From Alphaproteobacteria bacterium (GTDB taxonomy: Bacteria; Pseudomonadota; Alphaproteobacteria; UBA9219; RGZA01): a stretch of 64,000 bases of DNA. Position numbers and translations under genes: made by a program. The notes beneath the pieces are model-generated. The model had not been told where the DNA came from. It did not search any database and saw nothing but the letters and a program-made list of their open reading frames with translations. The stretch spans positions 1 through 64,000 of the forward strand of contig JANRLI010000016.1 of NCBI GenBank assembly GCA_033762625.1, given 5' to 3'. Shown here piece after piece: positions 13,372-34,225 of the stretch; the first letter of the stretch is position 1; every line of letters begins with the position of its first letter.

Positions 13372-13446
13372 TGGGGTGTAGCCAAGCGGTAAGGCAACGG
13401 ATTTTGATTCCGTCATTCCTAGGTTCGATCCCTAGCACCCCAACCA
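13372..13446 (+). tRNA. tRNA-Gln (anticodon TTG)
   Basis: A complete cloverleaf: acceptor TGGGGTG / CACCCCA, anticodon stem ACGGA/TCCGT around TTTTGAT, and T-arm CTAGG-TTCGATC-CCTAG. The anticodon TTG reads CAA and, by wobble, CAG. The discriminator A and the CCA tail are encoded. No integrase or duplicated tRNA end lies next to it, so there is no sign of an integrated element. Confidence 0.96.
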
Positions 13447-13649
13447 TTTACTCTGTCCTCCTTGATAACGCTCTAAGCCATATCTGACATTACGAACCTT
13501 TTATCACGTGAGGATGCGATGTCATAGTTCGGCGCTTGCAGATGCAAGACAAATGCCGCCCTGTGAGCATCCTTCGCGCGGATGCAAACTAATGCTTTAG
13601 CTGTATTTGATATGTGCTTTAGGCACTAAGGTGGCGGTTGCTGCGTTTC

Positions 13650-13793: not shown

Positions 13794-13810
13794 GTGGGAA
13801 ATTTTTCCAC
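13794..13810. promoter_or_regulatory. 17-bp palindromic site A (GTGGGAA-N3-TTyCCAC)
   Basis: GTGGGAAATTTTTCCAC, 74 bp upstream of the outer-membrane protein start. The same 17-bp pattern occurs twice upstream of the EK-repeat gene at 17356. Three matching sites in one 4-kb locus make this a probable operator of a shared regulator. Confidence 0.6.
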
Positions 13811-13839
13811 TTTACTTTTTTGCCAATATAATTGAGGTT

Positions 13840-13860
13840 TGGTCACAAATTCGTTGACCA
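13840..13860. promoter_or_regulatory. inverted repeat TGGTCA-N9-TGACCA
   Basis: Perfect 6-bp arms with a 9-nt spacer, ending 24 bp before the start codon at 13885. It probably overlaps the promoter or transcript start, as a repressor site would. Confidence 0.4.
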
Positions 13861-13884
13861 TCAATTTTAATCTAAGGATTAGTT

Positions 13885-14715
13885 ATGAAAAAATTGCGCT
13901 TCTTAACTGCCGCTGCATGTGCACTTATTCTCTGCGGCACACAGGCTGAAGCAGCAGCATCCGCGAAACCTGTAAAGCCGTCCAAAGAGGTTGAGCAAAG
14001 CGTTGGTGAATCCAACGGGTATAAGTTCAAGGTCGGCACCGGATTTGATTATAGCTCTGGCAATTACGGAAGCGCGAGCAATACCGAAATATGGTACGTA
14101 CCCGTTACTGGTAAAGTTGAACGTGATAACTGGACATTGAAGTTGACCATTCCCTGGCTCAGCATCACTGGCCCCGGCGCTGTTGTTGGCGGCGGTGGAA
14201 CAGGCGTGACACGCGCTCCTGCTGTCGTAACCACGACTGAATCCGGATTGGGTGATATGGTAGGATCGCTGGGTTACAGCCTTGAATTACCCAATGCGTT
14301 TTTTGTTGATGTGACAGGTAAAATTAAATTCCCAACAGGTGATTTCAACAAAGGCCTGGGGACGGGCGAAGCCGACTATACAGGCCTTATCGATATCACC
14401 AAACAAATCGGCATCGTGTCGTTGTTTGCAGGCGGTGGATACAAGATTACCGGCACTAACAGCACCCTTAATCTACACAATGTGCCATTGGCAAATGTTG
14501 GCGCAGGTATTGACGCAACCCCGCAGCTAAACCTTGGCACATCGTATGATTGGCGTGAATCTGCATCGGGCCGCGATAACCCCAGCGAAAGTACCTTCTA
14601 TGCTAATTATAAGCTGACCAAGCAAATAAATGTACAAGGCTACGGCGTTGTTGGTTATTCCGATGGCAGTCCGGATTATGGCATTGGCTTAATGCTGGGA
14701 TACAAGTTCCAGTAA
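13885..14715 (+). CDS. outer-membrane beta-barrel protein, transporter-like
   Basis: A 276-residue exported protein with a clear signal peptide (KKLRFLTAAACALILCGTQAEA, cut after AEA). The mature part is built of alternating strands (EIWYVPVTGKVERDNWTLKLTIPW) and glycine-rich turns. It ends YGIGLMLGYKFQ, close to the usual aromatic C-terminus of barrels except for the final Gln. It resembles the MetA/transporter family of small outer-membrane channels (PF13557-like), though I cannot fix the family. The ATG has an AAGGA ribosome binding site. A strong terminator follows. The upstream 17-bp palindrome links it to the DUF6502/EK-repeat locus. Confidence 0.75.
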   Translation: MKKLRFLTAAACALILCGTQAEAAASAKPVKPSKEVEQSVGESNGYKFKVGTGFDYSSGNYGSASNTEIWYVPVTGKVERDNWTLKLTIPWLSITGPGAVVGGGGTGVTRAPAVVTTTESGLGDMVGSLGYSLELPNAFFVDVTGKIKFPTGDFNKGLGTGEADYTGLIDITKQIGIVSLFAGGGYKITGTNSTLNLHNVPLANVGAGIDATPQLNLGTSYDWRESASGRDNPSESTFYANYKLTKQINVQGYGVVGYSDGSPDYGIGLMLGYKFQ

Positions 14716-14740
14716 GCACCTTTTCATACATTAAATAAAA

Positions 14741-14770
14741 AGGCCCCTCCAATAATGAAGGGGCCTTTTT
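14741..14770 (+). terminator. rho-independent terminator
   Basis: AGGCCCCT / AGGGGCCT stem with a 10-nt loop, then TTTTT. It ends the barrel gene; a run of A before the stem lets it also act on minus-strand transcripts. Confidence 0.9.
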
Positions 14771-14801
14771 CGTTTGCACAACACCGAACACATCACAGTT
14801 A

Positions 14802-16367
14802 TTAATGCCTGCTACCGTGACCGCTATGGTCTTCTTTTTCAGGCTTTTCGACTTTCTCCGGTGTTTCTATCTTTTCAACTTTCTCTGGCTTTTCAACTTT
14901 TTCAACCTTCTCAACTTTCTCTACCTTTTCAACTTTTTCAACCTTCTCGACTTTTTCTACCTTTTCTACCTTTTCTACCTTTTCAACTTTTTCAACTTTC
15001 TCGACCTTCTCGACTTTTTCTACAGCTTCAATTTTTTCTACGCGTTCTACGCCACTGCCATGCCCACTATTATCGGTGCGTTCGATTTTTTCATTCGGCA
15101 GCACCTCGTGACCAGAGCCATTACTGCCTGATCCACCGCTACCCGAATGATCTTCATGCCCAGAACCACCCGAAGATGAACCGCTATTAGAGTTTTCATC
15201 ATGCGAACCTTCATGGCTAGAACTTCCGTGGCCAGAGCTATCACCACTGGAATTGATATCGCCATCTGTTGTTCGCCCACCATGCGATCCAGATGAATCA
15301 TCGCCCCTGCCTTCATCGCGGCTGCGTTCATGGTTTTGATGGGTGATTGGTTCAGGACTATCCTTAAACGAACGTACATCCACCCCATCATCCGTGCCGC
15401 GCGGGCCAGAAAGAATAACGCGCTCACCTGAACGGAGATTCCGCCCATGCACAGCCACATCATCGATAACAGCTTTACCTTGCGCATCATGGCCAGCATA
15501 GCCTTCCAGTGAAATAAAATCTGCCTTCTTACGTGCATCATCATTTTCACGTGATATATCATCGGCCACCAATTCACGGCCATTCCATGCACCTTTCACA
15601 ACCACGCGTTCGGCGGCCCGTATGCTCGGCAAGGCGGATTTATCAATCACAACGGGGGTCTCACCCACGCGTGCCAAGCCAGCCGCATTAATGGCCAGAC
15701 GCCCAATCACACGATCCGGAAGCGAAGGTGCTTTGGGTTCCACATGGCTTGCAACCAAACGCCCAAGCGGATCTCGCAAGCCACTCACCCGTATATTCTG
15801 GCCAAGCGCAAGGCCATGCCACGCAGGCGAATTGATGCGAACCTGTTCATTCATGACACGCACCAAATGCCGTGCCGGATCAATATGCGTTACAGGACCT
15901 TCGACTGAACGATGCACCTCGATGGAACGCGCTACCAATGATGTTGAACGCGGCATAGTCTCCGCAATAACTTTGACATATTGGCCAAGTTTCAAATTTT
16001 TTGCCTGCGTTTTGCTTTCACCATCTGTGACAGGAGTATCGTCGTCATAGGTCACGCGTAGCCCGTTTATGCAAACACTGCCATAGGCATAAATGGTACC
16101 GCTGATATAGATGGTCTTTATATCATCATCATTGTTGATACCCGTACCGCCAACCCCGCGATCTGCGCGCACTCCTGTGCCGCCAAATCCTTTATCATCA
16201 CCATGACCTGTACCGCCAATCGCGCCGGGTTGAATACCCGTACCGCCAAATCCTTTATCTAAATATCCATTTGCCATGCGGCATGGGTTGTCGGCTGCGC
16301 GCAACGGTCCGGCAACACCAAGCAATGCCAACAACAACCACAAAAGCAGCTTATTTTTTTGTACCAT
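14802..16367 (-). CDS. DUF5666 exported protein with GGTG motifs and a VEK repeat tail
   Basis: A 521-residue secreted protein. After a signal peptide (LLLWLLLALLGVAGPLRAA) come four GGTG motifs within 45 residues (GFGGTG, AIGGTG, GFGGTG, GVGGTG). Then follow OB-like repeats of the DUF5666 type (YISGTIYAYGSVCINGLRV, with related strands to about residue 320), a long Ser/Gly/His-rich linker and a C-terminal run of 15 VEK triplets with EKPEK variants. The ATG at 16367 has an AGGAAG site and overlaps the DUF6502 gene by 17 bp, so the two are translationally coupled. DUF5666 proteins with GGTG motifs often sit beside DUF6502 genes; their function is unknown. A surface or periplasmic location is likely. 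Confidence 0.8.
   Translation of the reverse strand: MVQKNKLLLWLLLALLGVAGPLRAADNPCRMANGYLDKGFGGTGIQPGAIGGTGHGDDKGFGGTGVRADRGVGGTGINNDDDIKTIYISGTIYAYGSVCINGLRVTYDDDTPVTDGESKTQAKNLKLGQYVKVIAETMPRSTSLVARSIEVHRSVEGPVTHIDPARHLVRVMNEQVRINSPAWHGLALGQNIRVSGLRDPLGRLVASHVEPKAPSLPDRVIGRLAINAAGLARVGETPVVIDKSALPSIRAAERVVVKGAWNGRELVADDISRENDDARKKADFISLEGYAGHDAQGKAVIDDVAVHGRNLRSGERVILSGPRGTDDGVDVRSFKDSPEPITHQNHERSRDEGRGDDSSGSHGGRTTDGDINSSGDSSGHGSSSHEGSHDENSNSGSSSGGSGHEDHSGSGGSGSNGSGHEVLPNEKIERTDNSGHGSGVERVEKIEAVEKVEKVEKVEKVEKVEKVEKVEKVEKVEKVEKVEKVEKVEKVEKPEKVEKIETPEKVEKPEKEDHSGHGSRH
14890..15024 (-). repeat. 9-bp tandem repeat coding VEK x15
   Basis: About fifteen 9-bp units coding Val-Glu-Lys, with silent variation in the valine codon (GTT, GTA, GTC). 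The frame is kept throughout, so the array is coding and probably changes length by slippage. Confidence 0.85.
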
Positions 16368-17181
16368 GCTTCTCTTCCTGCTCGTCATACAGATACATGC
16401 CAAGCGTCATCCGATGACGAGGCCCTGCGCGCCCTTTGTCCGTAGTTGCCAGTTCTTCAGCGCGGCGATAGACCTTCTTTAAAAGCTCCATACCCTCCGT
16501 ATTCACTAATGTGCGCAGCTCAAGGATGGCCGCTTCAGATAAACCGTCATGAAAAGCACTACGATCAAAATGACCGCCGTGCTCCAGCTCCATATTCGTG
16601 GCAGAGGCCGCCATGTGATCGTGGATCTGCCGCGTAAAGAACCGAAGTTTATTGGTAAAGTCCTGCGTTGGTAAAAACGCTTCTTTCTTCAACGTAAGAA
16701 GATTATCCGCATCCACATCAACCAAACCCAACCGCTGCAATTCTTCCAGATGCACTTTGGCCCGAACATCTTTGGAGACGCTCTCTACCAGCATGGTAAA
16801 GGTTTTTGTTTTGGTATCGGTGCTAGCATAGGGAAGTTTTAACGGCACCTTGTGCTTATCCAAAAAAATTGGATTGGTCATCCATTCGGCTATCACCGCA
16901 AACAACGGCGAACTTTCTTTTGGTGATTCTTCGGAGCCTTCAGCCTCTTCCATCAAGCTGGTAATATCTTTGCGATGCAAACCGGTCAGTACAGCCAACT
17001 GGCTATGTGATATTTTCGCGGGCTGCGCTTCCAAAATCTTGCGGCCACTTTCAAAAAATACGCGCTTAGACAAATCCACAAACTCGCGGTGCGAAACGCC
17101 ATGCTGTAGCAACAGCCGCACCAATGGCTGCAGCAGGTGGCGCAACGCTTGCTTCAACAGATTTTTCTTATTTTTTTTCAC
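16351..17181 (-). CDS. DUF6502 family protein, HTH-like
   Basis: A 276-residue cytoplasmic protein matching the DUF6502 pattern: LRHLLQPLVRLLLQHGVSHREFVDLSKRVF near the N-terminus, then ISHSQLAVLTGLHRKDITSLM, which reads as a helix-turn-helix (residues ~58-78). No signal or membrane segment is present. It begins with GTG at 17181, divergent from the EK-repeat gene, and its 3' end overlaps the start of the DUF5666 gene. The HTH and position make it the natural candidate for a regulator of this locus, acting at the GTGGGAA palindromes in its own upstream region. That is inference; the family has no established function I can cite. Confidence 0.75.
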   Translation of the reverse strand: MKKNKKNLLKQALRHLLQPLVRLLLQHGVSHREFVDLSKRVFFESGRKILEAQPAKISHSQLAVLTGLHRKDITSLMEEAEGSEESPKESSPLFAVIAEWMTNPIFLDKHKVPLKLPYASTDTKTKTFTMLVESVSKDVRAKVHLEELQRLGLVDVDADNLLTLKKEAFLPTQDFTNKLRFFTRQIHDHMAASATNMELEHGGHFDRSAFHDGLSEAAILELRTLVNTEGMELLKKVYRRAEELATTDKGRAGPRHRMTLGMYLYDEQEEKHGTKK

Positions 17182-17271
17182 CCGTCTATTTCCCTACTAA
17201 GCCTATGAATTTGCAACCAAGTTTATCAACGGAGCTCGTTTATTTACATGGTACCACAAAAGCGTATTGAC

Positions 17272-17288
17272 GTGGGAAAAAATTCCAC
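17272..17288. promoter_or_regulatory. 17-bp palindromic site B
   Basis: GTGGGAAAAAATTCCAC in the divergent gap between the DUF6502 and EK-repeat genes, 34 bp from site C (start to start, about three helical turns). Same pattern as the site at 13794. Confidence 0.6.
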
Positions 17289-17305
17289 ATATAACATCTT
17301 TATTC

Positions 17306-17322
17306 GTGGGAATGTTTCCCAC
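17306..17322. promoter_or_regulatory. 17-bp palindromic site C
   Basis: GTGGGAA-TGT-TTCCCAC, the best copy: perfect 7-bp arms. It ends 33 bp before the start codon at 17356, so it likely overlaps the core promoter or transcript start. Confidence 0.65.
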
Positions 17323-17355: not shown

Positions 17356-17895
17356 ATGACTTATAAAGCAATTGCTCTTGGTTTGGCCCTGGGCCTTATG
17401 GCTGGAACCAGCCTATCCACCACCGCACATGCCGCCTTTATGGTGGAGCGGGTAGAAACCGTCCGTCAGGAAAAAGTAGAAAAGCCAGAAAAGGCTGAAA
17501 AGGCAGCGCGTCCTGAAAAAGCGGAAAAAGTAGAAAAAGCAGAGCGTCCTGAAAAAGCAGAAAAGGTAGAAAAAGCCGAACGTCCTGAAAAAGCAGAAAA
17601 GGTAGAAAAAGCAGAGCGTCCTGAAAAAGCAGAAAAAGTAGAAAAAGCAGAACGTCCTGAAAAAGCAGAAAAAGTAGAAAAAGCAGAACGCCCTGAAAAA
17701 GCAGAAAAGGTAGAAAAAGCAGAGCGTCCTGAAAAAGCAGAAAAAGTAGAAAAAGCAGAACGCCCTGAAAAAGCAGAAAAGGTAGAAAAAGCAGAACGCC
17801 CTGAACATGCAGAACGTCCAGAGCACGCTGAACGTCCAGAACATGCTGAACACCCAGAGCATGCTGAACGTCCAGAACATGGCAGCCACGATTAA
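17356..17895 (+). CDS. exported EK-rich repeat protein
   Basis: A 179-residue protein with a signal peptide (AIALGLALGLMAGTSLSTTAHA, cut after AHA). The mature part is almost entirely repeats: eight exact 12-residue units KAEKVEKAERPE, then five shorter PEHAER-like units ending in GSHD. It is extremely charged, predicted helical, and without cysteines or aromatics. The KVEK core recurs in the DUF5666 protein two genes away. The ATG has a GAGG site. Two 17-bp palindromes lie upstream. A periplasmic or surface spacer, polyelectrolyte or histidine-tipped metal binder are possibilities; no function is established. Confidence 0.8.
   Translation: MTYKAIALGLALGLMAGTSLSTTAHAAFMVERVETVRQEKVEKPEKAEKAARPEKAEKVEKAERPEKAEKVEKAERPEKAEKVEKAERPEKAEKVEKAERPEKAEKVEKAERPEKAEKVEKAERPEKAEKVEKAERPEKAEKVEKAERPEHAERPEHAERPEHAEHPEHAERPEHGSHD
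17518..17805 (+). repeat. 36-bp tandem repeat, 8 units
   Basis: Eight in-frame 36-bp units with only synonymous differences (GCA/GCC/GCG, GAG/GAA, CGT/CGC). Near identity suggests recent expansion or gene conversion. Confidence 0.9.
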
Positions 17896-34209: not shown

Positions 34210-34225
34210 CATGTAGCCTTGTTGC

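Follow-up and report, generated by a model that had tools for sequence, protein, structure and literature searches.

DUF6502 is very probably a gene switch over itself and exported surface proteins, with a conserved 17-bp palindrome as its predicted operator

The window studied here is a stretch of 64,000 nucleotides (positions 1 to 64,000 of contig JANRLI010000016.1, assembly GCA_033762625.1) from a member of the Alphaproteobacteria. It contains a gene for a DUF6502 protein, neighbouring genes for exported proteins and three copies of a 17-bp palindrome, called here operators 1 to 3 (Table 1). DUF6502 is very probably a hitherto unrecognised gene switch over itself and exported surface proteins. 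The sites, their promoter layout, their conservation, their co-occurrence with DUF6502, the covariation of recognition helix and operator, and the recurring partner genes are seen directly in the sequences; from these we infer that DUF6502 itself would bind the palindrome, as a dimer, and that it would repress and be open to induction. It is probably a sequence-specific regulator, most likely a dimeric autorepressor acting at GTGGGA-N5-TCCCAC, that controls exported envelope proteins.

The original prediction had placed palindromes at 13794, 17272 and 17306, and all three are present at exactly these positions (GTGGGAAATTTTTCCAC, GTGGGAAAAAATTCCAC and GTGGGAATGTTTCCCAC, respectively). Allowing two mismatches, a scan of the window gives seven matches, strands counted separately, against 0.68 in shuffled sequence, and no shuffle reaches seven. 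The sites lie close to start codons, as had been claimed, with gaps of about 74 bp to the ATG of the outer-membrane protein gene at 13885, about 33 bp to the ATG of the EK-repeat protein gene at 17356 and about 90 bp to the GTG of DUF6502 at 17181. No further intergenic copy had been noticed in the window, and the genome-wide scan named beforehand as a check agrees: across the 26 contigs of the genome (2.23 Mb) these three are the only copies at zero or one mismatch, and coding DNA contains none. At two mismatches, where further regulon members were sought genome-wide, the counts are at chance level (18 and 16 on the two strands, against 23 and 28 for a backward control pattern). The palindrome stands, with a small correction to the proposed consensus, GTGGGAA-N3-TTyCCAC: comparative data prefer GTGGGA-N5-TCCCAC.

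The comparative data come from 122 DUF6502 loci, gathered from genomes, plasmids and genome contigs and including a few duplicates (for example L045 and L064), which were footprinted for GTGGGA-N5-TCCCAC with up to two mismatches within 450 bp upstream of DUF6502. The motif is found in 99 of the 122, so the same sites do stand beside DUF6502 in other species, the second check that had been proposed. It is kept in Alpha-, Beta- and Gammaproteobacteria, in records labelled Deltaproteobacteria and in others. The 56 kb of upstream DNA contains 187 sites and the remaining 996 kb of locus DNA only 50, a density about 66-fold higher upstream, and many of the 50 are tandem pairs near other genes. When palindromes are counted without any given motif, GTGGGA arms with a 5-bp spacer rank first, with exact copies in 34 loci against at most four in the coding control. 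Sites with no more than one mismatch number 130, against a mean of 0.03 with permuted arms. Two or three tandem copies are common; the distance between copies is mostly 28-30 or 33-34 bp, and other groups cluster near 55 bp and at 62-66 bp. The 34 bp between operators 2 and 3 correspond to about three helical turns. Palindromes of this kind may also be RNA hairpins or terminators, and the sites at 13794 and 17305 are flagged as terminator-like in a scan. This explanation is extremely improbable, since the sites lie inside promoter spacers, upstream of start codons and in tandem copies, and since base identity is conserved beyond what pairing alone requires, with G at position 3 in 152 of 152 sites.

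Between genomes, the motif follows the protein. DUF6502 is present in 15 of 385 genomes sampled from the class of the window and in 21 of 398 sampled from its phylum (roughly 4-5%), and the perfect palindrome occurs in 9 of the 15 class genomes with DUF6502 against 11 of 352 without it (Fisher P 2e-9); since the loci are phylogenetically related, P values overstate independence. The partner family DUF5666 is found in seven of 142 genomes. Six of these are the DUF6502 genomes, where the two genes are neighbours every time; the one remaining match scores under the family cut-off.

The operator also varies with the predicted recognition helix of DUF6502, which contains His69-Arg70-Lys71 (window numbering). 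At all 98 loci with the motif the protein has His69, and at the 11 loci whose protein lacks His69 the motif is never found. Several of the latter have 17-bp palindromes that differ in sequence and keep the 6-5-6 geometry: ATGTGC with helix TRREV in L052, ATGTGT/ATGTGC with helix QRRDI in L053 and L054, and GTGTGT with helix QRRDI in L127. In L029, L049 and L055, ATGGGA-N5-TCCCAT palindromes take the place of the GTGGGA type. A joint change of helix and operator is as expected if DUF6502 is the binder, with statistics that relatedness inflates. Which protein binds cannot be read from the position of a site before a gene, and the palindrome could be bound by another transcription factor, encoded elsewhere, with DUF6502 as one of its targets. 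That is very unlikely, given that all sites of the genome at zero or one mismatch lie in the DUF6502 block, that motif presence tracks DUF6502 presence between genomes, and that the operator sequence changes with the DUF6502 helix.

The position of the operators within promoters points to repression. In the EK-gene promoter, operator 2 sits between TTGACG (17267-17272) and TATAAC (17290-17295), which are separated by 17 bp; a generic promoter scan does not list this promoter because it demands T as the last base of the -10 element. The operator-in-spacer layout recurs in dozens of relatives. TTGAC abuts the operator at 60 of 179 non-redundant upstream sites, 57 of the 60 reading away from DUF6502, and the -10 element follows exactly 17 nt on in 39 of the 42 TTGAC cases where it can be recognised; shifted controls give mostly 1-5, with 13 and 17 at offsets of 15. 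In five Nitrosomonas loci (L106, L120, L121, L124 and L130), the gene behind a promoter of this layout encodes an exported beta-propeller protein, about 610 amino acids long, with a weak cupredoxin-like match.

In the proposed mechanism, the N-terminal helix-turn-helix (HTH) of DUF6502 would read the half-site GTGGGA, two half-sites making up the 17-bp operator, and DUF6502 dimers on operators 2 and 3 would cover the shared intergenic region. Since operator 2 lies between the EK -35 and -10 elements and operator 1 over a -35 element, binding should block RNA polymerase at both promoters. The DUF6502 gene and the DUF5666 gene that overlaps it should likewise be transcribed less. Some signal would then free DUF6502 from the DNA, and the cell would make a set of exported envelope proteins. 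Autoregulated HTH repressors of TetR-like arrangement also have an operator in the -35/-10 spacer, and the DUF6502 locus resembles theirs: it has a pair of divergent genes, its operators are inverted repeats, one of which lies between -35 and -10, and autoregulation is predicted. DUF6502 differs in having two HTH-type modules and in giving no match to a known regulator family in Pfam or NCBIfam. The MraZ half-site resembles TGGGA/GTGGGA with 5-bp spacing, but MraZ sites are direct repeats whereas those of DUF6502 are inverted repeats.

Several points weigh against DUF6502 as a repressor at this palindrome, in addition to the relatedness of the loci. The GTGGGA type is absent from 23 of the 122 loci, and a divergent helix does not account for all of them; the recognition helix in the window is itself somewhat unlike that of the family (SQLAVLTGLHRKDI); and MerR-type activators also bind the promoter spacer, although usually one of 19-20 bp. 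DUF6502 might bind the palindrome as an activator, or as a repressor of itself and an activator of its targets. Tandem sites 28-66 bp apart would suit such a role, and HetR, a weak structural neighbour, is mainly described as an activator (PMC4649674). Activation is nevertheless unlikely, since the operators either occupy the 17-bp spacer of promoters close to consensus or run into the -35 element, and a protein bound at such places normally keeps RNA polymerase away.

The predicted structure of the preferred binder, DUF6502, has a DNA-binding fold. AlphaFold models of the window protein (mean predicted local distance difference test score 86.5, predicted template modelling score 0.69) and of the Rhodoferax lacus protein (91 and 0.78) both have an HTH module followed by a winged helix and long helices. 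Residues of about 27-86 and 85-171 can be superposed on HTH and winged-helix domains at Z of about 6-7.4 and root-mean-square deviations (rmsd) mostly of 1.3-3.5 Å. The domains matched are those of HTH and winged-helix regulators and of sigma region 4, with Z up to 7.4, which is middling (under 8) for the aligner. The small regulon bound by DUF6502 that was first proposed is thus supported by conservation, co-occurrence between genomes, helix covariation, the modelled fold and recurring partners.

HetR, the heterocyst regulator of cyanobacteria, is the top Foldseek match of both models, with weak E values of 0.029 and 0.17. It runs colinear with DUF6502 through most of the chain and is nearly the sole full-length match, with a template modelling score of about 0.3, rmsd of about 11 Å over about 200 residues and Z of 6.2-6.7. 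The DNA target of HetR is a 17-bp inverted repeat rich in G, GAGGGGTCTAACCCCTC, and HetR also binds the promoter of its own gene (PMC4192349). Counted from the dyad, it contacts bases at -8, -6, -5 and -4/-5 (PMC4649674; numbering converted), which fall on the positions of the four G residues conserved in the DUF6502 half-site. In contrast, recognition by HetR needs a core of GGG-N5-CCC (PMC4649674, PMC4192349) and DUF6502 sites have GGG-N7-CCC, a spacing longer by 2 bp; equal core spacing, considered as a further likeness, is ruled out by the same papers. The HetR fold comprises DNA-binding, flap and hood domains; the modelled C-terminus of DUF6502 is helical and lacks the alpha-beta-alpha-beta hood of HetR. 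There is also no sequence similarity: the HetR profile PF03574 matches none of 75 DUF6502 members at E up to 10, hhalign gives a probability of 0.1-0.2% with only two sequences on the HetR side (the HetR sequence being corrected against PDB chains), and sequence searches of the PDB find no relative. Since there is no profile signal, DUF6502 is not called a HetR homolog; with a weak fold match, no sequence relation and a differing core, HetR is the nearest lead and not a family assignment.

The genes around DUF6502 recur in other bacteria. A GxGGTG motif, located behind the signal peptide of an exported protein, is encoded in the gene downstream of or divergent from DUF6502 in 71 of 85 loci, and in none of 1,133 open reading frames more than 3 kb away. 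It is kept in several loci where the protein is short (about 95-120 amino acids) or without DUF5666. L113, L126, L140 and L143 have, in place of the DUF5666 protein behind DUF6502, exported proteins of 92-97 amino acids with a single GxGGTG and an acidic proline-rich tail. Outer-membrane barrel homologs were counted in loci with enough flank (Table 1); 12 of 21 tested homologs match PF13557 (E up to 1, best 3.6e-11), the outer-membrane protein of the window itself does not, and in L022, L085 and L110 operators are found no more than about 110 bp from where the barrel gene starts. Exported EK/ER-repeat proteins recur too, for example in L136. Distant operator copies in other genomes also precede exported-type proteins; in genome G356, a perfect operator stands before a large RTX-type calcium-binding repeat protein (L171:1937-3737), on a contig other than that of DUF6502. 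Based on recurring partners and remote copies, the targets therefore appear to be mainly envelope or secreted proteins, and the predicted recurrent regulon comprises DUF6502, an exported DUF5666/GGTG-motif protein, an outer-membrane barrel and repeat-rich exported proteins.

The GGTG motif invites a comparison with PatS/PatX, the peptides of HetR: in both cases an exported protein, encoded next to the regulator, carries a short conserved motif rich in glycine. The motif differs in being GxGGTG and not RG(S/T)GR, which occurs in none of the neighbouring proteins of 85 DUF6502 loci, and most of its carriers are large DUF5666 proteins. By this analogy DUF6502 would be a HetR counterpart outside cyanobacteria, with the exported GxGGTG motif as the peptide ligand that releases DUF6502 from its operators in a self-contained switch for surface sensing or cell-cell signalling. 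Such a scheme is improbable as a whole, and the motif as ligand is speculation.

Table 1. Features of the DUF6502 block in the window
Feature	Position	Strand	Remark
Operator 1, GTGGGA-AATTT-TTCCAC	13794..13810	none	right arm overlaps -35 of outer-membrane protein promoter
Predicted sigma-70 promoter of outer-membrane protein gene, TTTCCA-17-TATAAT	13804..13832	+	promoter scan
Outer-membrane beta-barrel protein, 276 amino acids	13885..14715	+	homologs beside DUF6502 in 36/64 loci
Exported DUF5666 protein: four N-terminal GGTG motifs, C-terminal EK-rich repeat	14802..16367	-	overlaps DUF6502 gene end
GGTG repeat segment, DKGFGGTGI..GAIGGTGH..DKGFGGTGV..DRGVGGTGI	16140..16260	-	behind signal peptide of DUF5666 protein
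DUF6502 protein (PF20112), predicted operator-binding regulator	16351..17181	-	HTH ~59-80, recognition helix HRKDI; winged helix ~128-164
EK-gene promoter, TTGACG-17-TATAAC	17267..17295	+	operator 2 fills spacer; sequence, layout recurrent
Operator 2, GTGGGA-AAAAA-TTCCAC	17272..17288	none	sequence scan
Operator 3, GTGGGA-ATGTT-TCCCAC, perfect palindrome	17306..17322	none	34 bp from operator 2
EK-repeat exported protein, 179 amino acids	17356..17895	+	similar ER/EK-repeat protein divergent from DUF6502 in L136

In the window, the PF20112 profile scores 104.8 bits against the DUF6502 protein over residues 9-270, above the curated cut-off of 27, which places the protein in the family. The DUF5666 gene starts at ATG 16367 and overlaps the DUF6502 gene by 17 nt; the predicted regulon would reach DUF5666 only via this coupling to DUF6502. 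The EK-rich repeat of the DUF5666 C-terminus (14879-15023, minus strand) and that of the EK protein (17515-17791, plus strand) share about 70% DNA identity in inverted orientation, possible material for an inversion of the block. A methyltransferase match from PADLOC coincides with the EK repeat, and low complexity is taken to explain it. Literature searches find no paper mentioning DUF6502 and DUF5666 only named in passing, in four papers; those on GIGGTG and MraZ sites give nothing useful, and a text search on the half-sites returns unrelated papers.

The block lies in a segment that a sister species (G002) does not have. Synteny extends through tRNA-Gln (13372-13446), where the match ends at 13502, and resumes at 34224; the stretch in between (13503-34223, about 20.7 kb), which holds the DUF6502 block, is missing in G002, where only 1.8 kb of other sequence separates the flanks. 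DUF6502 is not found in any relative searched of the same genus, family or order, and the window shows no duplicate of the tRNA 3' end. This island-like insertion or deletion fits both transfer next to a tRNA gene and loss in the sisters.

For a family of no known function there is thereby a concrete prediction of what it does, where it binds and which genes it controls, and the DUF5666 and GGTG-motif exported proteins gain a first handle. If the link to HetR were true, a famous developmental regulator would be tied to a widespread family outside cyanobacteria. What is predicted for the DUF6502 family is an envelope programme of outer-membrane barrels and repeat-rich exported proteins, with an RTX-type protein in one genome.

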